From positions 85,812 to 149,811 of the forward strand of contig CAMUHY010000005.1 of assembly GCA_947088865.1 (NCBI GenBank): 64,000 nucleotides of DNA. The letters run 5' to 3'. Of the stretch, positions 1,576-58,986 are shown piece by piece. Position 1 is the stretch's first letter, and every line of letters starts with the position of its first letter. The notes under the pieces were generated by a model. That model saw nothing but the letters and a program-made list of their open reading frames with translations. It did not search any database and was not told the DNA's origin. Made by a program: the position numbers and the translations under genes. This DNA is from an uncultured Eubacterium sp. GTDB lineage: Bacteria > Bacillota > Clostridia > Lachnospirales > Lachnospiraceae.

Positions 1576-1730
1576 TTTAACTTTATCAAGGAAATACCTT
1601 ATTTTAATGTTATAGAGAAATAGGTGTTGACTTGCTTATTTTAGTAAAAGCTATCACTGAAAAACTGAGATAGCAGTTATGAGGTATGTACAAGTAGCGT
1701 AGGGCATTGCAAATATCCGCTTTGACTTTT
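1576..1730 (+). repeat. Dispersed structured repeat, copy R1
   Basis: Begins TTTAACTTTATCAAGGAA and ends GCATTGCAAATATCCGCTTTG, matching the ends of copies at 30036, 44053 and 58906. Inside is a hairpin GCTATC...GATAGC (1650-1673) corresponding to GCTGC/GCAGC in the 30 kb copy. The terminal hairpin is degenerate here (AGGGCAT against ATCCGCT). It lies directly upstream of the membrane protein gene at 1785. Confidence 0.7.
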
Positions 1731-1784
1731 ATATTTTTTTTCTACGTAAGATTTAAAATTATTTTTATTTTTAGGAGGGATGTT

Positions 1785-3032
1785 ATGTCTTCAATTCATG
1801 AGTTTATAAAAAGGAATGCAAGTTTAATTCTACATATTTTTGTTACTTTAGTTTTTTGTACTTTTCTTGGAATATTTTTTGAAAAATTTTCAGATTATTT
1901 ATTGTTTGCAAATGTAGTTTTATTATTGATAGGAGTATACCTTGTTTATAGGATGATTTTTAAAAAAATTTATGCAGATTCTTTTTTAAAATTAATTTGC
2001 ATATTATTAATGATAATATCAGCAAATCATTTTTATTCATATAGTAAATTGATAAGTGTATTTCCATGGTTAGCAAATAATCATAAATTATTAATCATTG
2101 GATTAATCGTAACATTGCTTACTATTTTGTTTGTATTTAAACTTTTTACATATTTTGAATCTTCTAATAAGCATAAATTTGCAAATAATAATATATTAAA
2201 TGAATCAAATAATTCAAATAACTCAAATAACCCCAATGAATTAAATATACCACAACAGGATTTACCAACAATTCGTAGTGAGATTTTTTCTTTTTTACGT
2301 TTTTTAAGCATTGCAATTATATTGTGTTTAATTATATTTATACCTGCACTATTACTTTACCTTTTTAACAAACATGATTTAGATAAATCTACCCTTGAAT
2401 TTGATAAGGTACTTTCTTTCCTATTAAGTTATGGTTCATCATTTTTATTAATTCTTTTTGCAGTTGTTATAACTATTGTCACTTTAATTTATATTATTAA
2501 GTATATATATAATCAAATTCGATTTTTTAAAATATCGAATGATAAAGAATCATCCGCAATTCCTACATATGCTTTTAGTGTTATTATTGTTTGTATACTT
2601 TTATTTTTATCGTGGCGAATAACGAATTTTTCACTGAATGATATTACAGAAACAATGGCAATTGGTAATTATTTAGCATTACCATTGGCAGTAATTATAA
2701 TAATGGTATTGTTTTTTTTACTTGTTCAAATAGTACATGCAGTAATTTTAATGTTAAGCCAAGTATCAACAACGAATATAAAAGATTTTTTGCGAAAGCA
2801 AGAAGAAAAATTAAAAATTGGTCATAATATTGTAAAAATAATAGAATGTATTATTGACACAATTTTACAGACTATTTTAGCTGTTCTTGAGTTTATAAAA
2901 TTTATACCTAATTTCTTTATTTCATTAAGTAAGATGATTTTATTGGAGGATAGTGAAAGAGAAAATCAAGATGAAGACAAAGAAAATGAAATCTCTAATA
3001 TTGAAAAAGATGTTACAGCAATGGATGATTAA
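1785..3032 (+). CDS. Unrecognised polytopic membrane protein
   Basis: A 415-residue protein with about eight hydrophobic segments: four in residues 10-130, a hydrophilic asparagine-rich linker (NNNILNESNNSNNSNN) around 140-160, then four more up to about residue 345, and a charged acidic tail. I do not recognise the family. The ATG at 1785 follows TTAGGAGGGATGTT, so the in-frame ATG at 1707 is rejected. It is separated by 35 bp from a second membrane protein and both are strikingly A+T-rich; together they form a likely two-gene unit. It could be a transporter-like or surface-stress membrane protein, but nothing in the sequence fixes a function. Confidence 0.8.
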   Translation: MSSIHEFIKRNASLILHIFVTLVFCTFLGIFFEKFSDYLLFANVVLLLIGVYLVYRMIFKKIYADSFLKLICILLMIISANHFYSYSKLISVFPWLANNHKLLIIGLIVTLLTILFVFKLFTYFESSNKHKFANNNILNESNNSNNSNNPNELNIPQQDLPTIRSEIFSFLRFLSIAIILCLIIFIPALLLYLFNKHDLDKSTLEFDKVLSFLLSYGSSFLLILFAVVITIVTLIYIIKYIYNQIRFFKISNDKESSAIPTYAFSVIIVCILLFLSWRITNFSLNDITETMAIGNYLALPLAVIIIMVLFFLLVQIVHAVILMLSQVSTTNIKDFLRKQEEKLKIGHNIVKIIECIIDTILQTILAVLEFIKFIPNFFISLSKMILLEDSERENQDEDKENEISNIEKDVTAMDD

Positions 3033-3067
3033 TCGAACTTAAAAGATAAAACTTAGGAGGATACATT

Positions 3068-4588
3068 ATGAAAAAAGATGAACCATTTAATTCTCATAAT
3101 GAAGGGATTCGTATTGTTAAAATTGCCGCCTTTTGTTTTGCTATTGTTTCATGGTTTGCGACAGCACAGGGGTTACAGGAGTATGTTTTCAATGGTCAAT
3201 ATTGGCAAGCATGTATGATTTCATTTGGAATACAATCAATATTATTTGTATTTAACTTAAAGTTGCCAGAATATTTTGCACAAATTGGCAAAAGAGTTCC
3301 TAATAATCTACGAAAATATAGAAAATATCATTTAGGTAAAAAAAGAGGAACTTTTAAGGATACGTTTAAATGGACACGTTTGCAAAAAATAATTGCTTTT
3401 TTTTATGTACTTATATTATTAGCGAGTTCTTTTTTTTCCTTTGTGTATATGACAAATCTTGTTTATAAAAATACTAGGTACATAGATGCTAATATTGTTT
3501 TAGATAGAAATTATCGGATGTATTTAAACAAAGTTGATGTGTATACAAACGAATTTATTAAAGTTTCTCAGCTTACAATCAATAAAAAATTATCGGACTT
3601 GCAAAGTTTGATTAAAGATAGCAATGTCCAAAGTGAGCGAAAGTCTAAGAGTGAGCTTCAAAATGAATTAATTGAGAAGAAAGAAGAACTTAATAAAATA
3701 ATTGTTGCAAAAGAAGAAACTAAAAATATATTTGACACAGCAAAAAAAATGTATGAGACACCTATGGATGTTCGGTGGCGTGATTTAAGTGCATATAATA
3801 GCGAAAGAACTGAGTATGAAACTGCAAGAGGTAATTTAAAAATTGCTGAAGAAGCAGTTGCGGCAGCCGAATTAGAACTTGATAAGGCACAATTAGCATT
3901 AGATAATTATAAACCCACTTTAAATACAGTTGTACATGATTTACTTGTTGCAACCTTAAATTTTCAATCCAATAGTGATGAACTAAAATCTTTGATGACA
4001 CAATTAAATGATATAGTGCTTGAAACGAATGAAAGCGAAATTACAGCAGAAACTTTTGCACAAATTGTTGTACATACAAAAGAATTATCAATTTCAATTG
4101 ATAATTATCATTTACTAAATATGATTCAATCTAAAGAGGGGGATAACAATGATATAGCAGATTTTAAAACTCAAATGATAAGTAATGAAATTATTGTTCC
4201 AGCGCCATCGTCCGAAAGTTTTTTAGAGGATAAAGAACAGTGGGAAACTCAATGGAAAAAACGTTTTTTATTGTTAGAAAATATAATAAAAAGTGTTCCG
4301 AATTATTCTGAATCTACTACAAGTGCAATTGATAATATTGGTGAAATTGTAGATATTCAATCATTAAAAGAATTTAAAGCACAAGAAATATCTGATAAAA
4401 TTGATATTATAGTTAGAACAAATTTAGCGAATATTAATGCGTTAGAACGTGCTATTAAGTTGTTGGTTAGTGATTTTCCTATTTTGGCATGGTTTTCATT
4501 TGGGATTGCAATATTTTTTGATATATCTTCTTTATTAGCTGGGTTGTTTGTTTATCTTACACCTGTTGTTAGAATTAAAAAAAATTAA
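3068..4588 (+). CDS. Unrecognised membrane protein with coiled-coil domain
   Basis: A 506-residue protein with hydrophobic segments near residues 16-35, 46-64 and 105-130, then about 340 mostly hydrophilic residues. That stretch includes a strongly helical, charged section (about 170-290, rich in K, E and A) that looks like a coiled coil. One or two further hydrophobic segments end the protein (about 470-502). The layout resembles membrane-anchored coiled-coil proteins seen on plasmids and integrative elements, but no family motif was recognised. AGGAGG at 3055-3060 supports the ATG at 3068. Probably cotranscribed with the preceding membrane protein. Confidence 0.8.
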   Translation: MKKDEPFNSHNEGIRIVKIAAFCFAIVSWFATAQGLQEYVFNGQYWQACMISFGIQSILFVFNLKLPEYFAQIGKRVPNNLRKYRKYHLGKKRGTFKDTFKWTRLQKIIAFFYVLILLASSFFSFVYMTNLVYKNTRYIDANIVLDRNYRMYLNKVDVYTNEFIKVSQLTINKKLSDLQSLIKDSNVQSERKSKSELQNELIEKKEELNKIIVAKEETKNIFDTAKKMYETPMDVRWRDLSAYNSERTEYETARGNLKIAEEAVAAAELELDKAQLALDNYKPTLNTVVHDLLVATLNFQSNSDELKSLMTQLNDIVLETNESEITAETFAQIVVHTKELSISIDNYHLLNMIQSKEGDNNDIADFKTQMISNEIIVPAPSSESFLEDKEQWETQWKKRFLLLENIIKSVPNYSESTTSAIDNIGEIVDIQSLKEFKAQEISDKIDIIVRTNLANINALERAIKLLVSDFPILAWFSFGIAIFFDISSLLAGLFVYLTPVVRIKKN

Positions 4589-4598
4589 TAGAGGACAA

Positions 4599-4647
4599 TT
4601 AAGGTAGCCATGATATTTTCAAAATACAAATATCACAGCTACCTTAA
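4599..4647 (+). terminator. Hairpin closing the two-gene islet
   Basis: TTAAGGTAGC pairs with GCTACCTTAA, with an inner GATATTT/AAATATC stem. There is no clear U-run on either side, so it may be a weak or factor-assisted terminator, or an element boundary. Confidence 0.55.
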
Positions 4648-4847
4648 GTATTAATACAAAAAACATAATATACAAGAGTTTCTTTTTTCTTTTCAAAAAT
4701 TTTACCATCAATATCTATACTTTTTCTTGATTTATCACCCATTTTATAGTATATTAAGGCAAGACTTTGGTCTGATACTTGTTGATGTTGCCAATTTTGT
4801 GCAGGACTTAATGTTTCAAAGCAAAATGGGGCAATTGACAGAAAGGT
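4648..4847. other. Spacer with a possible reverse-strand gene remnant
   Basis: No + strand gene is present. On the minus strand the frame from about 4830 down to a TAA at 4644 reads like protein (for example LSPAQNWQHQQVSDQSLALI, then GDKSRKSIDIDGK). In that direction it is cut off by plsX and has no start signal of its own. It may be the tail of a lost gene or simply an open frame by chance. Confidence 0.3.
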
Positions 4848-5888
4848 ATGGTTGTTGATATGGCTCAACTATGTAGGGTTGCATTGGATGCAATGGGAGG
4901 TGATAACGCCCCAGATGAAATTGTAAAAGGTGCTGTCCATGCAGTGAATGCAACAAATAATATTGAGGTAAATCTTGTTGGAAAACAAGAGTTAATAAAA
5001 GAGCAGCTTAAAAAATATAAATATAATAAAGATAGAATAAAAATTACCGATGCAAGAGATGTTATTGAAACAGGCGATTCGCCTGTGATGGCAGTTCGGA
5101 GAAAGAAAGAATCCTCTCTTGTAAAAGCATTGTATATTGTAAAAAACGGCGAGGCTGATGCGTTTGTTTCAGCAGGAAGTTCAGGCGCTATTATTGTCGG
5201 AGGTCAGACCATTGTAGGTAAGATAAAAGGGGTAGAGCGTCCGCCGATGGCTCCATTGATTCCTACGGCAAAAGGCGTTTCTATACTGATAGACAGCGGC
5301 GGCAATGTCGATGCCAGACCTAATTTTTTGATTCAGTGGGCAAAGATGGGTTCTTTGTATATGGAACATATCATTGGCATTAAAAAGCCAAAAGTAGCTA
5401 TTGTTAATGTCGGTGTGGAGGAAGAAAAAGGGAATGCACTTGTAAAAGCAACATATCCTTTGTTAAAAGAATGTAAGGATATCCATTTTATTGGCAGTAT
5501 TGAAGCCAGAGAAATTCCAAACGGGGAAGCCGATGTGATTGTCTGTGATGCTTTTGTTGGAAATGTTATTTTAAAATTATATGAGGGTACAGCGTCCACT
5601 TTGATTAAGACTATCAAGGGCTGTATGATGAAAAGTGTTAAAACTAAGATTGGTGCTTTATTGATAAAAAAAGCTCTCAAGCAAGAGCTTAAAAAGATGG
5701 ATGCCACAGAGTATGGCGGCGCGCCGTTAATTGGATTAAATGGTCTAGTCGTAAAAGTGCATGGCAATGCGAAATCAAAAGAGATAAAAAATGCACTGCT
5801 TCAATGCGTTAAATTTAAACAGCAAAATATTAATCAATTAATAGCAAAATCAATGAAAAAAGAAGAAAAAGAAGAAATAGAAAATTGA
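4848..5888 (+). CDS. plsX: Phosphate acyltransferase PlsX
   Basis: PlsX converts acyl-ACP to acyl-phosphate at the membrane, feeding PlsY (present at 33931) for phosphatidic acid synthesis. The VALDAMGGDNAPDE motif, GSSGA and the C-terminal GGAPLIGLNG are all visible. Length (346 residues) fits the family. The start is odd: family members normally begin M-R/K-V-ALDAMGG, but here an extra MVVDMAQLC precedes RVALDAMGG and the ribosome binding site is poor (AAAGG only 2 bp before the ATG at 4848; 4860 is the alternative). Just before the motif is ATGTAGGGTTGCA, one base away from the expected ATG-AGG-GTT-GCA. acpP follows after 25 bp. Confidence 0.93.
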   Translation: MVVDMAQLCRVALDAMGGDNAPDEIVKGAVHAVNATNNIEVNLVGKQELIKEQLKKYKYNKDRIKITDARDVIETGDSPVMAVRRKKESSLVKALYIVKNGEADAFVSAGSSGAIIVGGQTIVGKIKGVERPPMAPLIPTAKGVSILIDSGGNVDARPNFLIQWAKMGSLYMEHIIGIKKPKVAIVNVGVEEEKGNALVKATYPLLKECKDIHFIGSIEAREIPNGEADVIVCDAFVGNVILKLYEGTASTLIKTIKGCMMKSVKTKIGALLIKKALKQELKKMDATEYGGAPLIGLNGLVVKVHGNAKSKEIKNALLQCVKFKQQNINQLIAKSMKKEEKEEIEN

Positions 5889-5913
5889 TAAAAGTTATTT
5901 TAGGAGGTTTATG

Positions 5914-6138
5914 ATGGAATTTGAAAAAATGCAGGGAATTATTGCGGAAGTGTTGGATATTGACAAATCAAAAATTACATTGGAAAGTACTTTTGAAGAA
6001 TTGGGCGCCGATTCTTTAGACGTTTTACAGATTATTATGGGAATTGAGGATACATTTGAGATTAAGATTCCTGATGAAGCAACAGAAAAGATTGTAACAG
6101 TATCCGATGCAGTTGAACAGATTAAAACGGTGCTTTAA
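5914..6138 (+). CDS. acpP: Acyl carrier protein
   Basis: A 74-residue acidic helical carrier protein for fatty acid synthesis. Ser34 in GADSLD is the phosphopantetheine attachment site. Two adjacent ATGs exist (5911, 5914); the second is 6 bp from AGGAGG at 5902-5907 and is preferred. Located between plsX, which uses acyl-ACP, and rnc, a conserved order. A terminator follows. Confidence 0.96.
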   Translation: MEFEKMQGIIAEVLDIDKSKITLESTFEELGADSLDVLQIIMGIEDTFEIKIPDEATEKIVTVSDAVEQIKTVL

Positions 6139-6171
6139 TCTTTAGAATTTTGTTATTTTGTTGCATAAAAT

Positions 6172-6205
6172 GAGGCTGCCGCATTGGAGCGGTAGCCTCT
6201 TATTT
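6172..6205 (+). terminator. Rho-independent terminator after acpP
   Basis: GAGGCTGCCGC and GCGGTAGCCTC form an 11-bp stem with one G:U pair and a loop of six bases, followed by TTATTT. Confidence 0.85.
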
Positions 6206-6245
6206 GACATAAAAGCCTTGCAGTATGCGGCATGAAAGGAGTAAA

Positions 6246-14941: not shown

Positions 14942-14960
14942 AGAAATGGGGTATATTATG
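14942..14960 (+). promoter_or_regulatory. GAAATGGGG-type leader/ribosome binding site
   Basis: AGAAATGGGG directly before the lipoprotein start, one member of a recurring leader motif. An in-frame ATG at 14946 lies 12 nt before the preferred ATG at 14958. Confidence 0.6.
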
Positions 14961-17063
14961 TTCAATTATAGAAGATTAACCACAGCATTATTGACAGGTA
15001 CTATTGTAATGTTTTCTGTTACAGGATGTGCAAACACGGATGTGACTCAAGCAGAAATTCAAGTACACACAAATAATTCGCAAAAGACAGCATTTACAAG
15101 TAATTCGGATTTAAAGGTGGAATATACAAGTGAAGAGTTGGATGCCAGTTTTGATGAATCAACGTGTACTAAAATTGTACTTGGAAATGAAACCGTTGAA
15201 ATTACGTCACCAGGAACCTATCTACTCAGTGGTACACTTACAGAAAAAAGTATCCATGTAAATTGTAATGAAAAAGACACAGTACGATTTATATTAAATG
15301 GCGTTCAAATAACCAATTCAACAGAGGCGCCCATTGTTATAGAAGAAGCAAAAAAAGTAATTCTTACCCTTGCTGAAGGGACAAATAATACAATTACCGA
15401 TTCAAGAAACACAACGACAGAACAAGAATATTCGGCAGCAATATCGTCAAAAGCAGACCTTACAATAAATGGAAAAGGGACATTGACAGTCAATGCAAAA
15501 TATCGCAATGGTATAAAAAGTTCAGATGATTTAAAGATAGTATCAGGAACATTTGATATTGATAGTAAAGAAGATGGAATTGTCGGCAAAGACTTATTGG
15601 CTGTCCGTGATGGAAATTATACGATTACCGCAGGGACAGATGGAATGAAATCGACTTATGACACAGATACTTCTAAAGGAAATATTGTTATTGAGGGCGG
15701 ACAATTTCAAATTACATCACAAAATGATGGGATTCAGTCTCAAAATATATTGGCGGTAAGCAATGGTATATTTACAATAAAAACGGGAACAGGGGCAAGT
15801 GAAGCCTTAAAATCAAATAGTAATATCAATGACAGACAACGAGTCGATTGGGGAAATAATGCGACAACAACATCCGACAATTCGGAGAGCAATAAAGGAC
15901 TCAAATCAGAAAATGCGACATATATTACAGGCGGTACGTATACAATAGACAGTCAAGATGACAGTATTCATTCCAATGGACAGATTGTTATTGATGGTGG
16001 AACATTTTATTTAAGTACAGGCGATGATGGTGTTCATGCAGATAGCTCGATTGAGATAAATGGAGGAAACATTGATATTCAAAAAAGTTATGAGGGTATT
16101 GAAGCCGAAAAAATTACAATCAATCAAGGAAGTATATCCATTGTATCCAGTGATGATGGAATTAATGCTGCCAATGGAAGCAGCACAGGATTTTCAATGG
16201 GCGGCGGCATGAAAAATAATGGACAGAACGTGACCGAAAATGCACAATCAAGTACAATACTGTTGACAATCAATGGAGGCACTATTGTAGTCAATGCAGA
16301 TGGCGACGGAATTGACTCAAACGGAAGTGTGATTGTTAATGGTGGAGAAATTGTTGTGATGGGACCAACAAACAATAACAATGCAGCATTGGATTTTGAC
16401 AGTCAATTTGAAATCAATGGGGGAACGTTGATGGCGTTTGGGTCAAGTGGAATGTTGGAAGTACCAACGTCAGCAGCCAACGGGTGCTGTCTGGCGGCGA
16501 CATTTGAGACGCAGACAGATGATTTGGCATTTGAATTAAAGGATTCATCGGGAAATACGATTATGAGTTATACACCTGTAAAAAGTTATTCTTCTGCAAT
16601 TGTGTATTCTGAAAAGATTAAAAATTCAAATCAATATACCATAAAAGCTGGAAATAGCAGTGTAGAATTGACTGCCACAGAAGGCGTTACAACAAGCGGG
16701 AATGTTGGTATGGGTGGAATGCCAGGAAATCAGGGGATGTTTGGCAATCAAGGCAAGCCCGATATGCAGGGCGGCAGAGGTGGTCGCGGCAGCGCAAATA
16801 ATGATGGAATGAGTGTGCCAAGCGATGGTATACCTGGTGAAATGGGAATGCCAAATACAGATGGCGTGCCTGATAAAATGGGAATGCCAAATGCAGATGG
16901 TGTGTCCGATGAAATAGGAATGCCAAATAGAGGCAGCGTGCCAAATGAAATGAATATGCCTGAAAATGAAGATGGAAATAATAATGCTATTCCAGATAAA
17001 AACAATATAAAGCAAAAAGGACAAAACGGTACAGATACGCAGGACAATATGAATTTTATGTAA
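14958..17063 (+). CDS. Surface lipoprotein with carbohydrate-binding beta-helix (DUF4353/Cthe_2159-like)
   Basis: A 701-residue secreted protein. The N-terminus is a lipoprotein signal (FSVTGC, lipid-modified Cys at about residue 23). The body is made of repeated beta-strand turns such as TINGGTIVVNADGDGIDSNG and EINGGNIDIQKS, typical of the 'carbohydrate-binding domain-containing' beta-helix family whose member Cthe_2159 binds pectic polysaccharide. The tail (from about residue 580) is rich in Gly, Met, Asn and Pro and carries tandem GMPNxDGVPDxM units. It could bind plant polysaccharide or display an adhesive tail. The start follows GGGG. The MCP upstream is separated by 158 bp. Confidence 0.82.
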   Translation: MFNYRRLTTALLTGTIVMFSVTGCANTDVTQAEIQVHTNNSQKTAFTSNSDLKVEYTSEELDASFDESTCTKIVLGNETVEITSPGTYLLSGTLTEKSIHVNCNEKDTVRFILNGVQITNSTEAPIVIEEAKKVILTLAEGTNNTITDSRNTTTEQEYSAAISSKADLTINGKGTLTVNAKYRNGIKSSDDLKIVSGTFDIDSKEDGIVGKDLLAVRDGNYTITAGTDGMKSTYDTDTSKGNIVIEGGQFQITSQNDGIQSQNILAVSNGIFTIKTGTGASEALKSNSNINDRQRVDWGNNATTTSDNSESNKGLKSENATYITGGTYTIDSQDDSIHSNGQIVIDGGTFYLSTGDDGVHADSSIEINGGNIDIQKSYEGIEAEKITINQGSISIVSSDDGINAANGSSTGFSMGGGMKNNGQNVTENAQSSTILLTINGGTIVVNADGDGIDSNGSVIVNGGEIVVMGPTNNNNAALDFDSQFEINGGTLMAFGSSGMLEVPTSAANGCCLAATFETQTDDLAFELKDSSGNTIMSYTPVKSYSSAIVYSEKIKNSNQYTIKAGNSSVELTATEGVTTSGNVGMGGMPGNQGMFGNQGKPDMQGGRGGRGSANNDGMSVPSDGIPGEMGMPNTDGVPDKMGMPNADGVSDEIGMPNRGSVPNEMNMPENEDGNNNAIPDKNNIKQKGQNGTDTQDNMNFM
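16827..16962 (+). repeat. Tandem repeats in the lipoprotein tail
   Basis: Four to five imperfect 39-bp units encode GMPNTDGVPDK-M-like 13-residue repeats near the C-terminus. Such in-frame units readily change copy number by slippage. Confidence 0.7.
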
Positions 17064-18933: not shown

Positions 18934-18973
18934 CTGCATCAAGTAACACAGCAGATTGTAAATATCCGCTGTG
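18929..18973 (+). repeat. Dispersed repeat, short derivative R6
   Basis: TTTTTAACTGCATCAAG is followed after only a few bases by ACAGCAGAT-TGTAAAT-ATCCGCTGT. These are the 5' boundary and the terminal hairpin of the long repeats, with the middle missing. The hairpin has 9 bp with one mismatch. It overlaps the ffh stop codon. Confidence 0.6.
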
Positions 18974-18988
18974 ATGTAGATACAATAG

Positions 18989-25053: not shown

Positions 25054-25258
25054 CACTTTATTAGGTAAATTGTAAATATTTACTGGATTAGAAATCAGTG
25101 TTTTTAAGGTATTCCAAAGTAATGGTGTTTATGATAATATTAACTGAAGAATTAATAGATTAAAAATACAAAAGCGATTATATAATTTCGGTTATGTAAA
25201 AGGCAAAAGTATAATATAATCAAAATACTTATAAAAGATATATAAAGGATACAATACA

Positions 25259-29698: not shown

Positions 29699-30040
29699 TT
29701 GAACAAAAAAGCAATTGGTTCAAAGTGGGAAGCTGCTGCCAGAGAGTACATCAAAACATGCGGCTATGAAATTGTGTGCTGCAATTATAGATGTTTTATA
29801 GGAGAGATTGACATTATTGCAAAAGAACAAAAAACAATAATCTTTATTGAAGTAAAATTTCGCAGTTCAAGGCATTTTGGTACTGCGGTTGAATCGGTAG
29901 ACTATAAAAAACAACAAAAAATACGCCGTGTAGCTGCCCATTTTTTGACGACAACATATCATACAGAATCCATGCCTTGCCGATTTGATGTTTTAGGATT
30001 TGATAAAGAAAAAATAACCTATATAAAAAATGCGTTTTAA
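29699..30040 (+). CDS. yraN: UPF0102 (YraN) nuclease-like protein
   Basis: A 113-residue member of UPF0102 with an endonuclease-like core: GEIDIIAKEQKTIIFIEVKFR carries the E-D-ExK pattern. The biochemical role is not established. It begins with TTG at 29699, with AGAGG about 8 bp upstream. Its stop TAA falls in GCGTTTTAACCTTATCAAGG, that is, inside the boundary of a dispersed repeat. Confidence 0.88.
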   Translation: MNKKAIGSKWEAAAREYIKTCGYEIVCCNYRCFIGEIDIIAKEQKTIIFIEVKFRSSRHFGTAVESVDYKKQQKIRRVAAHFLTTTYHTESMPCRFDVLGFDKEKITYIKNAF

Positions 30041-30205
30041 CCTTATCAAGGAAGTCTTTTGCTTCAATATCGTGAAGATATAAGCGGGAGTGAAGGATTT
30101 GTTTATTTTAGTGGGGTATAACTTTTCCCACTAAAAAGCTGCAATAGCAGCTATGTGGTTTAAGCAGGCAGCCAAGTGGATTGCGAATATTCACTTAACT
30201 TTTAT
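30036..30205 (+). repeat. Dispersed structured repeat, copy R2 (longest)
   Basis: Starts TTTTAACCTTATCAAGGAAGTC at the yraN stop codon. It contains the hairpin AGCTGC-AATA-GCAGCT (30138-30152), GTGGTTTAAGCAGGCAGC, and the end hairpin AGTGGAT-TGCGAAT-ATTCACT, in which the usual GCGGAT/ATCCGC pair is replaced by another pairing set. It forms most of the leader of pgeF. Confidence 0.75.
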
Positions 30206-38609: not shown

Positions 38610-39413
38610 ATGGAATTACAATTATGGAAAGAGATTCTTACTCCTTATGATTTGGCAGTGGAAGAGCTGACCGTTAAATTTAATCATATTATTAAGGAAT
38701 ATCGTCAGCAGGGGTGTTATTCACCGATTGAACAAGTGACTGGCAGAGTGAAAAGTATTTCAAGCATTATTGGCAAAGCGCAGAAAAAACATATTGCGAT
38801 GAATGAAATTGAAGAACGCGTGGAAGATATTGCTGGAATAAGGCTGATATGCCAATTTGTCAATGATATTTATTCGGTTGTGGAGTTGATTCGCAATCGA
38901 AGCGATATGAAAGTGAAAAGTGAAAAAGACTATATAACGCATATGAAGGAAAGCGGTTATAGAAGCTACCATATCATTGTAATGTACAGTGTAGAGACAA
39001 CAACAGGTACAAAAGAAATTCCAGTAGAAATACAAATTAGAACATTAGGTATGAATTTTTGGGCGATAATTGAACATTCTCTGCAATATAAGTATCAGGG
39101 AAATATACCATCTTATGTTAAAGAGCGTTTAACGAGTGCATCAAAAGCCATTATTACATTAGACAATGAGATGGAATCCATCCATGATGATGTGATTGAT
39201 GCACAAAATTACTATTATATTCGCGCGAATATTGTATCGGATATTTTAGGTAACATACAAAATTTATATAAATGTGTCAATAAAAAAGAAATTGAAAAAA
39301 TACAGGATGAATTTTATGAGATATATCAAGGCGGAGATATCAGTAAATTAGAGCAGTTTAATAAACAGCTTGATATCGTTGCCGAGAGTTATCGAATGCA
39401 GTCTATGACATAG
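38610..39413 (+). CDS. Small alarmone synthetase ((p)ppGpp synthetase, RelQ type)
   Basis: Makes (p)ppGpp from ATP and GDP/GTP in the stringent response. The 267-residue protein has only the synthetase domain: RVKSISSIIGKAQKK (about 48-62), YITHMKESGYRSYHIIV with the G-loop (about 110-126) and EIQIRTLGMNFWAIIEHSLQYK (about 142-163, given here by its ends). There is no HD hydrolase domain and no TGS/ACT. ATG at 38610 follows ATGAGGATTG. It is divergent from ylbJ. Confidence 0.9.
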   Translation: MELQLWKEILTPYDLAVEELTVKFNHIIKEYRQQGCYSPIEQVTGRVKSISSIIGKAQKKHIAMNEIEERVEDIAGIRLICQFVNDIYSVVELIRNRSDMKVKSEKDYITHMKESGYRSYHIIVMYSVETTTGTKEIPVEIQIRTLGMNFWAIIEHSLQYKYQGNIPSYVKERLTSASKAIITLDNEMESIHDDVIDAQNYYYIRANIVSDILGNIQNLYKCVNKKEIEKIQDEFYEIYQGGDISKLEQFNKQLDIVAESYRMQSMT

Positions 39414-39439
39414 AGTATTTATAGGTTATAAGCAAGCAA

Positions 39440-39460
39440 AGCGGATTGTGGATATCTGCT
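39440..39460 (+). repeat. Solo terminal hairpin of the dispersed repeat
   Basis: AGCGGAT-TGTGGAT-ATCTGCT followed by TAACACAAGG. The stem is kept by a G:U pair. Next to it is a second hairpin AGGTTG/CAACCT (39468-39485), then the leader of the next gene. Confidence 0.6.
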
Positions 39461-39504
39461 TAACACAAGGTTGCTAAAACAACCTAAAGATTCTTGCACA
39501 AAAA

Positions 39505-41655: not shown

Positions 41656-43482
41656 ATGCATGATTTTTTGCCAATAAGTAAAGAGGATATGAGAAAAAGA
41701 GGATGGGAACAGTGCGATTTTGTCTATATTATCGGTGATGCGTATGTAGACCATTCTTCGTTTGGACATGCCATTATCAGCAGAGTGCTGGAATCAAGAG
41801 GGTATAAAGTTGGGATTATCGCACAGCCGGATTGGAAAGATAAAGAAAGTATTACAATTCTTGGGAAACCACGTTTGGGTTTTTTGGTATCTGGCGGAAA
41901 TATGGACTCGATGGTAAACCATTATACAGTAGGTAAAAAGCATCGAAAAACCGATGCGTATACGCCCGGCGGTGTTGTGGGAAAACGACCAGATTATGCA
42001 ACCATTGTTTACTGTAATCTGATTAAACAGACTTACAAAAAAGTACCGATTATTATAGGTGGTATTGAGGCTTCTTTAAGACGGCTTGCACATTATGATT
42101 ATTGGTCAGATAAAGTAAAACATTCTATATTAATTGATTCTGGTGCGGATATTCTTTCTTATGGAATGGGAGAACACTCTATTGTCGAGATTGCCGATGC
42201 TCTAAGCAGTGGAATTGATATAAAAGATATTACATTTATAAAGGGTACCGTATATAAAACAAGTACACTTGACAGTGTTTATGACTTTATCCAATTGCCT
42301 GATTTTCATACAATTTCATCCGATAAACGCCAGTATGCAAAAAGTTTTAAGATACAGTATGAAAATACCGACCCATTTACCGCAAAAACATTAGTAGAAC
42401 CGTACAAAGAAAAATGTTTTGTGGTGCAAAACCCACCAGCAATGCCACTTACCATAATGGAAATGGACGATATATACGCACTGGACTATATGCGGGATTA
42501 TCACCCTATATATAAAAAACAAGGTGGCGTGCCTGCTTTGTCGGAAGTAAAGTTTAGTATCACAAGCAATCGCGGCTGTTTTGGAGGCTGTAACTTTTGT
42601 GCATTGACATTTCATCAGGGAAGAATTGTTCAAGTAAGAAGTCATGAGTCCATTTTACAGGAAGCTGTGATAATGACAAAGGAGCCTGATTTTAAGGGAT
42701 ATATCCATGATGTTGGCGGACCGACTGCAAATTTTAGAAAGACCTCCTGTGACAAACAGTTGACGCATGGCGTATGTATGGGCAAACAATGTCTATTTCC
42801 AAAGCCTTGTGCCAATTTAACCGTAGAACATACCGATTATATTAATCTGCTTAGAAAGCTGCGCAAATTGCCAAATGTTAAAAAGGTATTTATACGTTCA
42901 GGAATACGGTTTGATTATTGTATGGCAGATAAAAATGATACCTTTATAAAAGAACTGTGTCAGCATCATATTAGCGGACAGCTTCGTGTAGCGCCTGAAC
43001 ATGTTAGCGATAAGGTGTTAAAGCTGATGGGGAAGCCTTCTAGTAAAGTGTACCAATCCTTTTTAAAGCGATACGAAACAATCAATCAAAAAACAGGAAA
43101 AAAGCAGTATATTGTTCCGTATCTGATGTCCTCTCATCCGGGTTCAACATTAAAAGAAGCCATTGAGCTGGCAGAGTACATCCGTGACTTGGGTTATATG
43201 CCAGAACAAGTGCAGGACTTTTATCCAACGCCGTCAACCATTTCAACTTGTATGTATTATACAGGCGTGAATCCGTTGACTATGGAAGAAGTCTACACTC
43301 CTGTGACATTCCATGAAAAAGCAATGCAGCGAGCGTTGATACAATACAAAAAACCAGAAAATTATGAGCTCGTAAAAGAAGCATTGATAAAAGGCAATCG
43401 CAGCGATTTGATTGGTTTTGATAAAAAATGCCTTATTGCACCCCGAAAGCAGCATAGAAATGGAAGGAAAAACAAAAAATGA
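41656..43482 (+). CDS. ygiQ: YgiQ family radical SAM protein
   Basis: A 608-residue protein of unknown substrate. The radical SAM iron-sulfur motif is CFGGCNFC (CxxxCxxC, about residue 308-315) preceded by SITSNRG. The N-terminal third contains the YgiQ-specific region ([20 protein letters not shown]) and the rest [10 protein letters not shown] and [22 protein letters not shown] precedes the ATG. It ends in an ATGA overlap with a small membrane protein gene. Confidence 0.93.
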
Positions 43483-44057
43483 TAAAACATTTAGAAAAAG
43501 GGCAGTTTGGTTATCTATCTGCCAAAAAGAAAAGAAATTTAATCATTATGATTATTGCGTTTGCTTTGGTGATAGTTTGTTTTATTGTTGGTCTTATCAT
43601 CTTTAAGGACAAGAATAATATTTTAACAGTTGTATCCATTGTGTTGGTTCTTCCTGCTGCCAAATTTGCCGTTGCATATTTTATTTTAGTGCCTCATGCG
43701 GCGGCACAGCTTCATTTGAAGGAAGCAGTTGAAAAGATTTCAGGAAGTCTTATTGTATTATATGATTTAGTGTTATCCAACAAAGTCAGTCCTATTGGAA
43801 CACAAGTAGTTGCCATTACAGACACGCTGATTATTGCATTGACCAATGAGACAAAAGCAGATAAAAAACTGTTTGAAAATAGTGTCAAAGAATTTATGCA
43901 GGTCGATGGCTGTACGGTAACAGTAAAGCTTTATACCGATGAAAAATCTTTTTTGGCAAAATTAAATATGCTTGCAAAAAGCAATTCAGGCGATGTGGAA
44001 AAAGATTTGACAAAAATGGAAAAAAATTCAGCATCGATTCAATCAATGGCTATTTAA
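43479..44057 (+). CDS. Small two-helix membrane protein after ygiQ
   Basis: A 192-residue protein with two membrane segments (about 24-45 and 49-72) and a soluble C-terminal half. Its stop TAA is inside TATTTAACTTCATCAAGG, the start of repeat R3. It overlaps ygiQ by four bases, so the two are translated together, but no function can be proposed. Confidence 0.8.
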
Positions 44058-44184
44058 CTTCATCAAGGAAGTCTCCCACTTTAATACTGCAAAGGCATAA
44101 GTGAGGTGGATTTGCTTAAAATCTACAATAGTAGCTAGGTGGTTTAAGGAGGCAGCGTAGCGGATTGCAAATATCGGCTTTGGC
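44053..44184 (+). repeat. Dispersed structured repeat, copy R3
   Basis: Begins TTTAACTTCATCAAGGAAGTC over the upstream stop codon. Contains CTCCCACTTTAATACTGC... pairing partly with ATAAGTGAGGTGG, then CTAC-AATA-GTAG (44122-44133) where copy R2 has GCTGC-AATA-GCAGC, GTGGTTTAAGGAGGCAGC and the end hairpin AGCGGAT-TGCAAAT-ATCGGCT. Confidence 0.75.
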
Positions 44185-49140: not shown

Positions 49141-49185
49141 TAAAAAAGTAGCATAAAAATAAGATTAAGATTCAAATTTTTAAAA

Positions 49186-50498: not shown

Positions 50499-50546
50499 AA
50501 ATAAAAAATCATATGAGTAATAAATGGTTTTATACGATGCAAAAAT

Positions 50547-50570
50547 AGCACAGAAATGAGGGTTATTATG
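50547..50570 (+). promoter_or_regulatory. GCACAGAAATGAGGG leader before hisB
   Basis: Second leader of this class within the histidine operon; in-frame ATG at 50556, 12 nt before the start at 50568. Confidence 0.6.
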
Positions 50571-51167: not shown

Positions 51168-51182
51168 AAAGGAGAGAAAAAG

Positions 51183-51905: not shown

Positions 51906-51908
51906 AAA

Positions 51909-53213: not shown

Positions 53214-53215
53214 TA

Positions 53216-53273
53216 ACCACAGCATAGCTGTGGTATAAAAGTTCGCAATGCGAACTTTAGGCATCGAACGATG
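53216..53273 (+). other. Tandem array of three short hairpins
   Basis: ACCACAGC-ATA-GCTGTGGT, AAAGTTCGC-AAT-GCGAACTTT and CATCG-AA-CGATG follow each other within 58 bp after hisIE. There is no U-run, so this is not a standard terminator. They may act in mRNA processing between the his genes and the RNase gene. Confidence 0.6.
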
Positions 53274-53305
53274 TAAGAACTTATAATATCTCATTATATA
53301 AAAAA

Positions 53306-53331
53306 CGCACAGAAATGAGGACAAGATTTTG
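53306..53331 (+). promoter_or_regulatory. GCACAGAAATGAGGA leader before the RNase G-like gene
   Basis: Recurring leader with AGAAATGAGG, here before a TTG start at 53329. It supports that start. Confidence 0.6.
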
Positions 53332-54561: not shown

Positions 54562-55066
54562 TAAAAAATATTCGTATGAGGATTTTTATAATAAAATAAG
54601 TCTTCCTATAAAAAATTCATCTTTAAAATATAAAATTTTCTTATTTATCTATCGCTATTTGGTATATTTGACGGTTCTTATTTATATGGCATTGTTGATA
54701 TATTGTCTGATTCAAGGCTTATATCATCAACTATTTAACGCTGTTTTGACGCCTGCTATAACTTTTATTGTGGTGACAATCGTGCGGCGGCTTATCAATG
54801 CGCCGCGTCCTTATAAGGTTTATCCGATTAAGCCTTTAATAGAAAAAAACAAAGCAGGCGAGTCTTTTCCAAGCAGACATACATTGTCTATTACCATTAT
54901 TGCAATGGCTGGATTGTATATTTGGTGGCCGGCAGGTGTGGTTTTATGGGTAATGTCTGTATGTATGGGAATTTCAAGGGTTATTGCCGGCGTGCATTTT
55001 CCAAGAGATGTGCTGGCAGCGGCTATGATTAGTATTGTGGCTGGAATGGGTATGTTTTTTTGGTAA
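54539..55066 (+). CDS. PAP2-family membrane phosphatase
   Basis: A 175-residue integral membrane phosphatase of the lipid/undecaprenyl pyrophosphate phosphatase type. The three PAP2 motifs are RRLINAPRPY (about 84-93), FPSRHTLS (about 110-117) and SRVIAGVHFPRDV (about 145-157). Five or six membrane segments. Start ATG 54539 overlaps the RNase gene; TTG 54554 after GAGG is an alternative. It could recycle undecaprenyl pyrophosphate, but the substrate is not fixed by sequence. Confidence 0.85.
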   Translation: MRIIVLSDKKYSYEDFYNKISLPIKNSSLKYKIFLFIYRYLVYLTVLIYMALLIYCLIQGLYHQLFNAVLTPAITFIVVTIVRRLINAPRPYKVYPIKPLIEKNKAGESFPSRHTLSITIIAMAGLYIWWPAGVVLWVMSVCMGISRVIAGVHFPRDVLAAAMISIVAGMGMFFW

Positions 55067-55070
55067 AAAT

Positions 55071-55092
55071 GGCGGATTGTGAATATCTGCTT
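55071..55092 (+). repeat. Solo terminal hairpin of the dispersed repeat
   Basis: GGCGGAT-TGTGAAT-ATCTGCT followed by TAACTTACACAA, matching the 3' end of the long repeats and the solo copy at 39440. It lies directly after the PAP2 gene and before the GH4 gene. Confidence 0.6.
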
Positions 55093-55136
55093 AACTTACA
55101 CAATTCTTACATTATGCTTTGGAAAGGGGGATTATG

Positions 55137-56495
55137 ATGGAAAAAAAGAACATAAAACTTGCTTATATTGGGGGCGGTTCTAAAATGTGGGCAAGAGTAT
55201 TTATGAATGATTTAGCATTGTGCAAAGATATGACAGGAGAAATTGGACTGTATGATATTGATATGGAGGCGGCTAATCGAAATAAACGTATTGGCGAACA
55301 TATCAACCAATCGCCAGAAATTTGTACAAAATGGAATTATGTGGTCTATGAGAGCTTAGAATTATGCCTTTTGGATGCAGATTTTGTCGTTATATCCATT
55401 TTGCCGGGTACATTTGAGGATATGAGGGTGGATGTTCATATGCCTGAAAAATATGGCATTTATCAAAGTGTAGGCGATACAGCAGGACCAGGCGGTGTTA
55501 TGCGCGCTGTTCGCACCGTTCCTATTTTTGAAACATTTGCACATGCTATCAAAAATATATGTCCAAAGGCATGGGTGATTAATTTTACCAACCCAATGAG
55601 TATATGCACAAAAACATTATATGATATTTTTCCTGAAATCAAAGCTTTTGGCTGCTGCCATGAGGTTTTTCATACGCAGGATTTTTTATGTGACATTTTA
55701 AAAGAACATACAGGAATTTGTGCAAAGCGAAAAGATATTTATACAGAGGTTGCAGGAATCAATCATTTTACATGGATTAGCAGTGCAACATATCAAGATA
55801 TTGAAATTATGGATTTTTTGCCGGAATATATAGAGAAACATTTTGAGGAAGGTTATTATGAACATGGTGCTGCCGACCAATATAAAACAGATTGCTTTGC
55901 TTATGCCAATAGAGTAAAAATGGATATGTATAAGCGTTATGGTGTTTTGGGGGCAGCAGGAGACCGGCATTTAGCTGAATTTATGAATGGTTCATGGTAT
56001 CTGAAAAATCCACAGCAAGTAGAATCATGGAAATTTGCTTTAACGCCTGTTGATTTTAGAATTAATCAAATGAATGAAAAAATCAAAGAGTCCAAAGAAA
56101 TGGCAGAGGGTGTTCGTCCTGTAAAAGTGGAAAAATCGGACGAGGAAGCCGTTGATTTAATGCGTGCTGTGCTTGGACTTACAAGTGCAGTGAGCAATGT
56201 AAATATGGTAAATAAAGGGCAGATTGATTGGTTGCCAAAAGGAAGTATTGTAGAGTCCAATGCTATATTTACCAATAATAATGTCAATCCAATTATGACA
56301 AAGCCGCTTCCAAAAAGTGTACAAGTGCTTGTAAAACGCTGTTGTGACAATGTTGATGTGCTGTATGAGGGAATTAAAAATAACGATATGGATATGATAT
56401 TTGCAGCATTTATCAATCAGCCGCTCTGTTCATGTCTGACAATTGATGAGGGTAGAACGCTGTTTGAGGAAATGCTTGCGCATATAAAACATTGA
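55137..56495 (+). CDS. Family 4 glycosyl hydrolase (alpha-glucosidase/galactosidase type)
   Basis: NAD- and metal-dependent glycosidase (GH4). The 452-residue protein has the Rossmann motif IGGGSKMW (about 11-18) and DID for NAD, the metal ligands Cys and His in GCCHE (about 180-184) and GINHF (about 212-216), and VGDTAGPGGVMRA. Substrates in this family include alpha-galactosides, alpha-glucosides and galacturonides, mostly phosphorylated or not by subgroup; the specificity here is unclear. ATG 55137 follows AAAGGGGG. No sugar transporter lies nearby. Confidence 0.9.
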   Translation: MEKKNIKLAYIGGGSKMWARVFMNDLALCKDMTGEIGLYDIDMEAANRNKRIGEHINQSPEICTKWNYVVYESLELCLLDADFVVISILPGTFEDMRVDVHMPEKYGIYQSVGDTAGPGGVMRAVRTVPIFETFAHAIKNICPKAWVINFTNPMSICTKTLYDIFPEIKAFGCCHEVFHTQDFLCDILKEHTGICAKRKDIYTEVAGINHFTWISSATYQDIEIMDFLPEYIEKHFEEGYYEHGAADQYKTDCFAYANRVKMDMYKRYGVLGAAGDRHLAEFMNGSWYLKNPQQVESWKFALTPVDFRINQMNEKIKESKEMAEGVRPVKVEKSDEEAVDLMRAVLGLTSAVSNVNMVNKGQIDWLPKGSIVESNAIFTNNNVNPIMTKPLPKSVQVLVKRCCDNVDVLYEGIKNNDMDMIFAAFINQPLCSCLTIDEGRTLFEEMLAHIKH

Positions 56496-56564
56496 TTTAT
56501 TTTGGTGAGAAATGAGTCAAGCGGAAATGTTTGTGTTGCACAATCTTCAAGGAAAAATACCATC

Positions 56565-56658
56565 CAACTATCGTAAATAGTTGAAACTGACGCTGTAATG
56601 CGTTAAGTAATTAATGTTACTTTTGAGGGGAGAGCCGCTTTGTGGTTTTCCCTTTTTT
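56565..56658 (+). other. Hairpin array ending in a terminator
   Basis: Three hairpins CAACTAT-CGTAA-ATAGTTG (56565-56583), TGACGC-TGTAAT-GCGTTA (56588-56605) and AGTAA-TTAATG-TTACT (56606-56621) precede a terminator: GGGAGAGCC pairs with GGTTTTCCC (G:U pairs) then TTTTTT. This is downstream of the GH4 gene, 330 bp before the fusion gene. It could be a simple terminator or an attenuator. Confidence 0.55.
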
Positions 56659-56988
56659 GTATATTAAATATATCATATCTAATAACGAAATGTAAAAAAT
56701 AATTGTTTTTGAATGAATCTAAAATATTAAAAATAAAATTTTACTATTCTTTATTGGCTTTATAGCAGAAAATTTTTTGTAATATGGTATGTTTGCTCAA
56801 AATAATATAGCAATAAAACTGTAATATATAGTAAGTATTCTAATAATTTAAAGGAAAATAAAGAAAATTTATTTTATAATTTTATAAAACGAAAATCTGA
56901 AAGACGATAGTTAAGAAGCTTAGATATATAGTGAAAAAGAAGATTGGATTGTCTGTTAATATAAAGTGTATGTAAAATGGAGGTTTGT
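56659..56988. other. A+T-rich spacer before the fusion gene
   Basis: About 330 bp with no gene or clear RNA structure, dominated by A and T. It may contain the promoter of the fusion gene; TTGTCT...TAATAT spacing is not a convincing match. Confidence 0.5.
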
Positions 56989-58755
56989 ATGAAGGTTGGA
57001 ATTATAGGTATGGGGAATATGGGAAGTAAATATGCTCAGTTGATAGCTAAAGGTGAGATAGCTGGAATGGAATTATCGGCTATTACAAGAGTGTCACAGG
57101 AAAGATGGGATAGTATAAAGGATTATGTGAGTACAGATTTGCATAAATTTCATTCTGGTGATGATATGTTTGATGCTGTCGATAAAGGAGTGTTGAAGCT
57201 GGATGCCGTTCTTATTGTAACACCGCATTATTCACATGAGACGTTGGCAGTTAAAGCATTTGAAAGAGGTATAAGTGTGCTGTGTGATAAGCCAGCAGGA
57301 GTGTATTCTAAGCAGGCGCGCAATATGCTAGATGCATATAATGCTGTGAAGAAGGATAATCCTAGTATCTTGTACGGTTATATATTTCATCAGCGAACAT
57401 TTCCAATATATAAAAAGATGAAGCAGATAGTTGACAGTGGCGAATATGGAAAGATAAAGCGAGTAAATTGGGTGGTTACAGACTGGTATCGCTCGAATGC
57501 CTATTATGCGTCAGCAAGTTGGAGAGCAACATGGAAGTATGATGGTGGGGGAACACTGCTCAATCAATGTCCGCATAATCTTGACCTGCTTGCATGGATA
57601 TGCGGCAAACCTGAGAGCGTGAACGGCTTTTGCAGAGAGGGGCAGTATCATTCCATAGAGGTGGAGGATGAAGTGACTGCTTATCTTGAATGGGAAAATG
57701 GAGCGAGTGGAGTATTTATTGCATCGACGGGAGAAGCGCCAGGAGTGAACAGGCTGGAGATTAGTCTGGATAATGCGCTGCTTGTATGTGAGAATGGTCA
57801 GTTAAGGATAGCGGTGCTTGATAAACCTGAAATTGAGTATAGAAATGGAACAGGAGATTTATTTGCCAAGCCGTCCTATACATGGCAGGATATAGAAGTT
57901 GAAGCGTCGGACAAGGCTTACAATAAGGTGTTGGAGAGCTTTGTGAGAGGTGAGATGGTGGCAGCAGGAGAGGAGGCTATCAATAGTCTTTATATTTCCA
58001 ATGCAATCTATCTGTCATCATGGGAGAGCCGCAAAGTGAAGATACCAAAGTCGGGGACTGCATATGAGAAGCAGTTTGAGCAGGAATTTGAGACAGGACT
58101 TAGCAGGAAGTTGGAAAAGAATGATAAGAAGCTGGAAAGGGCTACCTCTTGTGCAGAGATTATAAGGCTCGTTTTAGGCGCATGTAGTACAAACTGTTAT
58201 ATTGTTTATAATAAGTCATCTCGGAAATGCTTTATAATAGACCCAGCAGATGAGGCAGAGAAGATAATAAATGTTATAGAAGAAAATGGTTTGAAACCAC
58301 AGTATATCATAATAACACATGGACACACAGACCATATACTGGCGATGAGAGCGCTGGTGGACAGGTATGACATACCAGTTATGATTAGCCGGATAGATGC
58401 ATGGAGACTGTTGGATGAGAGGCTAATTAATGAACGTCCGTATGTCAGAGAACCCTATAAACCAGTTAGAGCTTCGGTGCTTCTTAGTGAGGGTGATGAA
58501 ATCTGGCTTGATGATATCCGTTTTCAGATAATGATACTTCCAGGACACACACCAGGTTCTATGGCTATCGTTGGGGATAGTATTATATTTACTGGAGATA
58601 CGCTGATGGCAGACAGATGCGGCAAGACAAGTCTTTTAGGCGGAGATGAACAGGCATTAGCAGAGTCTGTGAAGCGATTAAAAGATATGCCTAAAGACTA
58701 TATGATATATCCAGGACATCGTGAGATTACTATGCTGTGTGAGTGTGGGATATAG
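56989..58755 (+). CDS. Gfo/Idh/MocA oxidoreductase fused to a metallo-beta-lactamase fold hydrolase
   Basis: A 588-residue fusion. Residues 1-350 are a Gfo/Idh/MocA dehydrogenase: IIGMGNMG (NAD site), CDKPAG (99-103), GGGTLLNQCPHNLDLL (187-201). Residues about 390-588 are a complete MBL-fold hydrolase: THGHTDH (443-449), His520 (LPGHTPGS), Asp537 (TGDT), His577 (YPGHRE), all metal ligands present. A Lys-rich linker (about 372-387) joins them in one frame without a stop. By eye the gene is richer in G+C and AAG/CTG codons than neighbours, hinting at transfer. ATG 56989 follows GGAGG. I do not know this fusion; it may act on a sugar-derived lactone or ester. Confidence 0.85.
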   Translation: MKVGIIGMGNMGSKYAQLIAKGEIAGMELSAITRVSQERWDSIKDYVSTDLHKFHSGDDMFDAVDKGVLKLDAVLIVTPHYSHETLAVKAFERGISVLCDKPAGVYSKQARNMLDAYNAVKKDNPSILYGYIFHQRTFPIYKKMKQIVDSGEYGKIKRVNWVVTDWYRSNAYYASASWRATWKYDGGGTLLNQCPHNLDLLAWICGKPESVNGFCREGQYHSIEVEDEVTAYLEWENGASGVFIASTGEAPGVNRLEISLDNALLVCENGQLRIAVLDKPEIEYRNGTGDLFAKPSYTWQDIEVEASDKAYNKVLESFVRGEMVAAGEEAINSLYISNAIYLSSWESRKVKIPKSGTAYEKQFEQEFETGLSRKLEKNDKKLERATSCAEIIRLVLGACSTNCYIVYNKSSRKCFIIDPADEAEKIINVIEENGLKPQYIIITHGHTDHILAMRALVDRYDIPVMISRIDAWRLLDERLINERPYVREPYKPVRASVLLSEGDEIWLDDIRFQIMILPGHTPGSMAIVGDSIIFTGDTLMADRCGKTSLLGGDEQALAESVKRLKDMPKDYMIYPGHREITMLCECGI

Positions 58756-58853
58756 GATGAAACAATGATTACTTTTAATAAATGCAGGTGGTTTGATTGA
58801 TAAGATTTGGACATTATTTATGTAAAAAGCATCATAAGAACAGGAAATAAAAG

Positions 58854-58909
58854 AAACGTCGAGAATAGGCAAAAATGTGTAGCATTTATGCAGGTTTTCG
58901 GCGTTTTTT
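58854..58909 (+). terminator. Rho-independent terminator after the fusion gene
   Basis: AAACGTCGAGAA pairs with TTTTCGGCGTTT (G:U pairs), with an inner stem AAATG/CATTT, ending in TTTTTT. It directly abuts repeat R4. Confidence 0.8.
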
Positions 58910-58986
58910 AATCTTATCAAGGAAGTCCTTTCCTCACTTTAATACGGCAAAGGCATAAGTGTGAGTGGGGATTTGTGAATATCTTT
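58906..58986 (+). repeat. Dispersed structured repeat, copy R4 (internally deleted)
   Basis: TTTTAATCTTATCAAGGAAGTC, then CTCACTTTAATACGGCAAAGGC-ATAAGTGTGAG, closely matching R3; after GTGGGGATTTG it jumps to TGAATATCTTTTGAT, so the middle hairpin and GTGGTTTAAG segment are missing. Confidence 0.7.

Follow-up and report, generated by a model that had tools for sequence, protein, structure and literature searches.

The window analysed here, a 64,000-nucleotide stretch of an uncultured Eubacterium sp. of the Lachnospiraceae (contig CAMUHY010000005.1, positions 85,812 to 149,811), carries a family of short repeats built of several hairpins, and the nature of this repeat is the subject of the present analysis. 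Starts at 1576, 30036, 44053 and 58907 share TTTAA[CT]nTnATCAAGGAA. The 21-base start, with up to three mismatches allowed, had four matches in the window versus none in 100 shuffles. A covariance model (R1), trained on eight copies whose matches in their own genome are by construction, found eight places in the window at E up to 10. Three window copies (1576, 30036 and 44053) span the element from start to 3' hairpin; the remaining R1 places are partial or due to chance. An earlier inspection of the letters alone (the sequence-only reading) had located the first three starts correctly and the fourth at 58906, one base early, and had placed all copies on the + strand, as are all eight R1 places. 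It had also given the four copies a common start, middle hairpin and end hairpin. The start is indeed present in all four; the middle hairpin is missing at 44053 and the copy at 58907 is deleted or rearranged after its second stem.

The consensus of the copies in this genome is about 160 nt long, and the element has no genes of its own. In its 5' part, the target TTTAA is followed by a stretch beginning with C, one strand of an outer stem (P1), AAGTC and a hairpin with a C-rich foot (P2). Then come the hairpin P3 (TTTCAGTGGGAG..CTCCCACTGAAA), the short hairpin P4 (AGCTAC..GTAGCT), the return strand of P1 and a linker, which is GGTTATGAGCAAGTAGC in relatives and often GGTTTGAGCAAGTAGC in this genome. 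The 3' hairpin P5 (AGCGGATTGCGAATATCCGCT) precedes an end that reads TTAAC in this genome and TTGAC or TTTAC in relatives. The two end hairpins, P2 and P5, lie on one strand (from folds and pair counts), and on reading the element terminal inverted repeats are absent.

The best-preserved example in the window is a near-complete class-A copy (30036..30199, + strand, 152.2 bits), in which the element proper occupies 30041-30199 and ends in CTTAAC. Its target TTTAA (30036-30040) contains the TAA stop codon of an open reading frame (ORF; 29699-30040). The second, middle, fourth and 3' hairpins are present and the outer stem is eroded, with a P1 run of 4 bp. The class-A copy without middle hairpin (44053..44184, + strand, 116.5 bits, end CTTTGGC) likewise follows a target (TTTAA, 44053-44057) whose TAA is a stop codon, that of ORF 43479-44057. 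A diverged class-A copy lies at 1576..1726 (+ strand, 115 bits), with target TTTAA at 1576-1580 and end CTTTGAC. The rearranged copy (58907..58986, + strand, 27.5 bits over 58907-59073) has the target TTTAA and the left-end hairpin (second stem); all that follows is a remnant, perhaps of the 3' hairpin. Right-end remnants, also on the + strand, were found at 39424..39464 (GGTTATAAGCAAGCAAAGCGGATTGTGGATATCTGCTTAAC; 27.4 bits over 39312-39464), 55072..55095 (GCGGATTGTGAATATCTGCTTAAC; 16 bits over 54974-55095, E 0.021) and 18940..18974 (17.9 bits over 18938-18970, E 0.0071). The first two hold the G:U versions of the end stem that had been noticed at 39 and 55 kb. The last R1 place (25063-25084, + strand, E 0.89) is at chance level.

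The fold of the repeat is conserved by paired changes. In a MAFFT alignment of 29 copies from at least 24 genomes (counted by record prefix; the copies were hand-picked for diversity and are not a random sample), 86.7% of pairing cells can pair, versus 77.1% after shuffling and at most 49.7% when partners are slid by one to three columns. Both sides have changed in 28 of the 52 pairs, and the covariation score of 0.316 (0.148 in shuffled alignments) was reached in none of 500 shuffles. The paired changes first seen in the middle and end stems of the window copies are real, and covariation exceeds background. G.T pairs outnumber A.C pairs (51 versus 9 in helices 3-9; 81 versus 34 when helix 2 is added), so the gene-sense (top) strand is the strand that folds. 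P1 columns are out of register between the two target classes described below, which is why alignment-based figures for P1 are low, and runs were counted copy by copy instead. An uninterrupted P1 of at least 7 bp occurs in 22 of the 29 copies, with 16 different stems among the 29, and its return strand extends 2-4 bases into the target. Three copies of this set, all from the genome of the window, have P1 eroded to 4 bp.

Such a fold could belong to a structured RNA (a 3' untranslated region element, a small RNA or a stabiliser), selected for its structure and spread only secondarily. The strong covariation over 29 copies and the folding of the gene-sense strand agree with this, as does the position of 47 of 65 copies downstream of a co-directional gene. 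However, a folded single DNA strand yields equal covariation and an equal G.T excess; folding of the gene-sense strand is what either reading predicts, since an RNA would have this sense and so would the strand on which an IS605-type element is active, and the data do not tell the two apart. Orthologous sites of a close relative lack the copies, and there are minimal copies devoid of P2-P4 as well as copies cut at the 5' or 3' side. Nor did Rfam assign the repeat to a family, and the sequence-only reading could name none: nothing in the window reached a gathering score, and when eight loci were scanned permissively, a copy was overlapped by two matches alone, RAGATH-25 (E 1.9) and mir-3012 (E 3), both on the opposite strand at one locus (L002), far below gathering scores and at chance level. 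A structured RNA as the primary identity of the repeat is thus very unlikely, while an RNA role may exist as a by-function of a mobile element whose sense strand folds and covaries.

Mobility is evident from empty sites. The flanks of 16 copies from one Lachnospira genome (G003) were joined and eight joins were searched in five genomes. In another Lachnospira species (G008), four of the eight sites are clean and empty: a single TTGAA joins the two flanks, which in the filled site are separated by TTGAA and then C...CTTTAC. One species thus lacks copies that another carries. By this comparison, the TTGAA-class element extends from the C after TTGAA to TTTAC, and it inserts 3' of its target without duplication. 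Insertion of the kind expected in the IS200/IS605 family, with the element placed 3' of a fixed four- or five-base target that is not duplicated, was observed at four of eight sites. Among the other G008 sites, one is empty but diverged, one is unresolved, one holds a shortened derivative and one is filled in both genomes; four site comparisons in a further genome (G001) were too diverged to read. A class-A copy in a viral contig splits a prophage minor head gene, whose frame resumes after TTGAC; Faecalibacterium phage FP_Lugh has the homologous gene with no such interruption. Several copies stand directly after an apparent rho-independent terminator (hairpin and T-tract) of the upstream gene (L148, L156, L150, L123 and other G003/G008 loci).

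The repeat is abundant and widely spread. Searching with the covariance model, a check that the sequence-only reading had proposed, gave 144 matches (E ≤ 0.01) in the genome of the window (G000, 3.29 Mb), a lower bound because only 150 of 925 candidates were scored. In a survey of 61 genomes including this one (48 candidates scored per genome, E ≤ 1e-6), eight had matches. Beside the genome itself, these were four congeners (with 37, 30, 4 and 1 matches), one member of a different genus (20) and two genomes from outside the family (7 and 2). The 37 and 30 matches, in two Lachnospira species, include many near-identical copies. In a family-wide sample, with 14 candidates scored per genome, matches were present in 26 of 200 genomes (own included). 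The 3'-hairpin pattern occurs in at least 111 stretches of named genomes, among the matches listed being Lachnospiraceae bacterium, Lachnospira, Blautia, Roseburia, Eubacterium, Hespellia, Lacrimispora, Acetitomaculum and other Clostridia. Copies can be nearly identical within single species, and even between genera a Lachnospira pectinoschiza copy and an Acetitomaculum ruminis copy share 162 of 163 aligned positions and are separated by a single gap. Nine of 50,697 gut phage records contain similar stretches, three of them covering ≥ 80% of the query, and the 3'-hairpin pattern matched one viral contig; a plasmid search gave no match.

Reduced and compound forms are found beside the complete element. 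Derivatives of about 50 nt, in which the left-end start is joined to the right end (L003, L182, L189 (4147), L200, L225, L253, L271), are consistent with deletion between internal direct repeats such as AGCAAGT. Minimal forms consist of the P1 hairpin, linker and P5 only (L051, L168, L176, L199, L217), two of which (L199 and L217) have, by eye, similar upstream contexts in two genomes. Tandem copies, one element abutting or near the right end of another (TTTAC|CGCAGTG, TTGAC|CCGAATC), occur at L133, L250, L248 and L049. No right-end-only copy was found to be the end of a longer autonomous element.

The most specific evidence on the type of element comes from the bases next to P2. In IS608, the guide base at +16 pairs with target base -3 and that at +17 with -4 (PMC5934647), and the published guide AAAG and target TTAC suggest that guide base 4 pairs with target base -1. 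In the repeat, the four bases 5' of P2 satisfy all three pairings (1:-3, 2:-4, 4:-1) in 29 of 29 alignment rows, AAGT standing with TTTAA in 18 and CAAT, CATT or CAGT with TTGAA in 11. When the guides were permuted 2000 times, 15.4 of the 29 rows fitted on average and never more than 25, and shifted registers gave at most 7. The test was made on alignment columns; a broad guide regular expression was ambiguous and was not used. The TTTAA and TTGAA classes also differ in right end (TTGAC versus TTTAC) and in P1, and they show natural retargeting. Pairs were assigned for 60 of 117 matches, 29 TTTAA and 27 TTGAA agreeing with the loop letters and four being mixed; these class counts are approximate because scripts missed or mis-registered some copies.

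The left end resembles those of elements that encode a transposase. At 39 loci that carry a Y1 transposase gene (tnpA), a profile made from the left 60 alignment columns gave eight matches at E < 0.1, each of them on the same strand as tnpA. Five precede the PF01797 match by 113-157 nt (L339, 6.8e-5; L343, 8.3e-5; L112, 2.9e-4; L340, 8.7e-4; L344, 0.07) and three lie 1209-1259 nt downstream of it, in the position of a right end (L342, L344, L112). Twelve more matches at E 2-9 fall in mixed places, and a reversed control gave one, at E 3. In these gene-bearing elements the left end starts with TTTAA or TTTAT and continues, after a spacer, with AGCAAGAA and a C-rich hairpin, and at L112, L402 and L403 an enclosing P1-like stem can be seen by eye. 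Six of eight such ends fit the guide rule by script; L403 is a misfit, and L112, which the script misplaced, has AAAT at the guide when read directly. Where the target is TTTAT (L406, L407), AAGA replaces AAGT. The left end of the repeat is thus homologous to the left ends of tnpA-bearing IS605 elements. The Lachnospiraceae elements concerned (L112, which also has tnpB; L343/L402, L339/L410, L340, L344/L409) share target, AGCAAGAA, C-rich left hairpin and guide bases with the repeat; unlike it, they are long and gene-bearing. Their right ends, where read (L313, the same as L112, and L403, L405, L411), finish in GTAGTTCA, whereas the repeat finishes in P5 and TTGAC, TTTAC or TTAAC. Of the two ends, the left is shared with elements encoding a Y1 TnpA at the loci examined and the right, with P5, is not.

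Taken together, these results make it very probable that the family, about 160 nt long, is a non-autonomous transposon of the IS200/IS605 type that works as single-stranded DNA. The sequence-only reading had offered a small non-autonomous mobile unit as one of two options, and it is this option that empty sites, near-identical copies, the cross-genus pair, left-end homology and the guide rule favour. The top strand folds into the outer stem P1, the left-end hairpin P2, the inner hairpins P3 and P4 and the right-end hairpin P5. A Y1 (HUH) TnpA provided in trans, presumably of the IS605 kind, would bind the end hairpins and move the element. The four bases 5' of P2 (AAGT or CAAT/CATT/CAGT) would recognise the target, TTTAA or TTGAA, by pairing with its final four bases, and this pairing would set the left cut and the insertion point just 3' of the target, with no duplication. 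Excision would probably be scarless. P1, whose return strand can pair with 2-4 target bases, may help to present the left cleavage site.

Single-stranded transposition could also underlie the orientation of the copies. IS608 and ISDra2 insert into the lagging-strand template (PMC6006769), and the bias seen here may reflect the same preference. On G000:C1, GC skew of the + strand is negative in 10 of 10 samples and the - strand carries 24 of 26 copies. The contig of the window has 8 of 8 copies on the + strand, and skew is positive in the window, the part of that contig sampled. Over three G000 contigs, 37 of 43 copies have the lagging-strand-template orientation, a figure confounded by gene direction. 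The sign of the bias is that expected for lagging-strand-template insertion, although it is not uniform. The sequence-only reading held that copies are always co-oriented with genes, which is so in the window but not genome-wide. Among 70 of the 144 copies in this genome, flanking genes relative to the element (upstream, downstream) are ++ in 32, +- in 15, -+ in 10 and -- in 7; three copies have one flank unread and three lie inside an ORF (simple ORF caller).

Several results weigh against an IS200/IS605-type element. At the 39 tnpA loci, a right-end profile did no better than its reversed control and P5 has no counterpart; a P3 profile gave nothing above chance there. In a wider locus set searched with the whole profile, isolated P3-like hairpins (CAGTCGGAGTACAAGCTCCGACTG, CAGTGGGAGTATAAGCTCCCACT), with the rest of the element absent, occur near TnpB genes at L309 and L318, in Lachnospira relatives, and at L330, on contig C7 of the genome of the window. 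A right-end guide (candidate CAAG/GAAG) makes all three pairs in only 11 of 29 rows, although two of the three (pairs 2 and 4) form in 24. On contig C3, skew is negative in 10 of 10 samples, yet just 5 of 9 copies are on the - strand, and on G008:C1 (949 kb) skew is positive in 20 of 20 samples with 10 of 15 copies on the + strand. Finally, PF01797 is absent from G008 and G001, which have 37 and 4 matches to the repeat. In the 200-genome sample, a Y1 match (E ≤ 1e-20) is present in 16 of 26 element-positive versus 57 of 174 element-negative genomes (Fisher P = 0.008); 10 positive genomes consequently have none and 57 negative genomes have one. TnpA proteins with at least 59% identity to that of L112 form a subgroup that, with three genomes of partial hits excluded, is not significantly co-distributed with the repeat (4 of 26 versus 13 of 174, Fisher P = 0.25). 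A transposase that was lost once a burst had passed, or that came from a phage or plasmid, could explain these findings.

Candidate parents were sought at Y1 loci directly. A motif search of the four in the genome of the window gave none, and the right-end motif had only loose matches, with 6-7 errors, at 24 Y1 loci (L105, L115, L121). Two near-identical IS605 copies in this genome (L305 on C1 and L311 on C18, 97.6%) apparently follow TTGAA and have a tnpA with an in-frame stop.

The lack of PF01797 in G008 and G001 is compatible with other machinery that leaves no duplication, be it a RAYT, a Y2 (IS91-like) enzyme or reverse splicing of the group II intron type. The 3' hairpin also has GTAG at its foot, which resembles REP sequences (PMC3733652, PMC8266576). 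Such machinery is nevertheless highly improbable, given the IS605 left-end homology and a guide rule that holds in 29 of 29 rows; Rfam scans revealed no intron family, Y2 and intron proteins not having been searched for.

A further idea is that the copies are trans-acting guide RNAs (omega RNAs), transcribed from the upstream gene and serving resident TnpB nucleases. PF07282 is present in five of eight genomes with copies (G000, G001, G003, G008, G036) and in one of six in which none were found, and the right-end hairpin of an IS605 element at L309 shares the letters of the P2 tip. Even so, PF07282 is absent from the copy-bearing G015, G039 and G046 and present in G014, where no copies were found, and 30 TnpB loci have no close right-end match except inside two inserted copies (L307, L322). 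The P2 likeness, pursued as a lead, came to one match outside element copies and was abandoned, being explained by the similar hairpins at IS605 left and right ends that the left-end profile revealed. A TnpB guide RNA is very unlikely. A second TnpB element family with ends AGTAACGG, which look like those of the IS607 type, was observed in Lachnospira and a related genus (L314, L318, L321, L325, L320, L317).

As a non-autonomous IS200/IS605-type element, the repeat can be set beside known systems. Palindrome-associated transposable elements (PATEs), which are ends-only IS200/IS605 derivatives (PMC7290912), are likewise short, composed of ends only and without transposase, with mobilisation in trans presumed. 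The repeat differs from them in its high copy number, occurrence in many genera, covarying three-hairpin core and two target classes. REP/REPIN sequences with TnpA-REP are like the repeat in having a hairpin whose 5' foot is GTAG, in occurring as many copies that are mostly intergenic, and in being presumably mobilised by a Y1 enzyme (PMC3733652, PMC8266576). The GTAG REPs surveyed are 20-40 bp and come from Proteobacteria, Cyanobacteria, Chloroflexi and the PVC group (PMC3733652, PMC8266576), while the repeat is 160 nt with an IS605-like left end. The arrangement typical of REP/RAYT, a GTAG palindrome flanking its cognate RAYT gene, was not seen at the 24 Y1 loci, where right-end matches had 6-7 errors. 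IS608 resembles the repeat in insertion 3' of a short target, a guide 5' of the hairpin and equal left-end pairing geometry, and differs in target and hairpins (PMC5934647). Pairing of P1 with the target resembles the extended pairing engineered in IS608 (PMC5934647), but most P1 pairs are made with the 5' end of the element itself.

Our best reading is that the family is a new, structurally richer variant of non-autonomous IS200/IS605-type elements. It is unusual in that its outer stem extends into the target, its core has three hairpins and its right end differs from those of the IS605 elements examined. Extended pairing between left end and target is known to us only as engineered in IS608. 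A bolder proposal, possible but doubtful, is that the repeat is a generalist parasite of IS605 transposases with a control module of its own. P1 would then be a natural extended target pairing, the P3-P4 core a functional nucleic acid (DNA or transcript) that recruits or gates a trans factor and allows amplification without a resident TnpA, and the target would have been switched in nature by coordinated changes of guide, P1 and right end. In the literature, no account of such an element or structured RNA in Lachnospiraceae was found among the matches listed, with subscription literature mostly outside the search. Elsewhere in the window, a 36-nt tandem repeat (16824-16960, three copies shown) lies within ORF 14946-17063.

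The family provides a natural series of DNA-guided transposons, with two target classes and matching guide changes in many genera. With this series one could follow the co-evolution of guide, target and right end and ask if the outer stem tunes targeting. The family also accounts for a large set of intergenic hairpin repeats of gut Lachnospiraceae, which might be mistaken for riboswitches or small RNAs.

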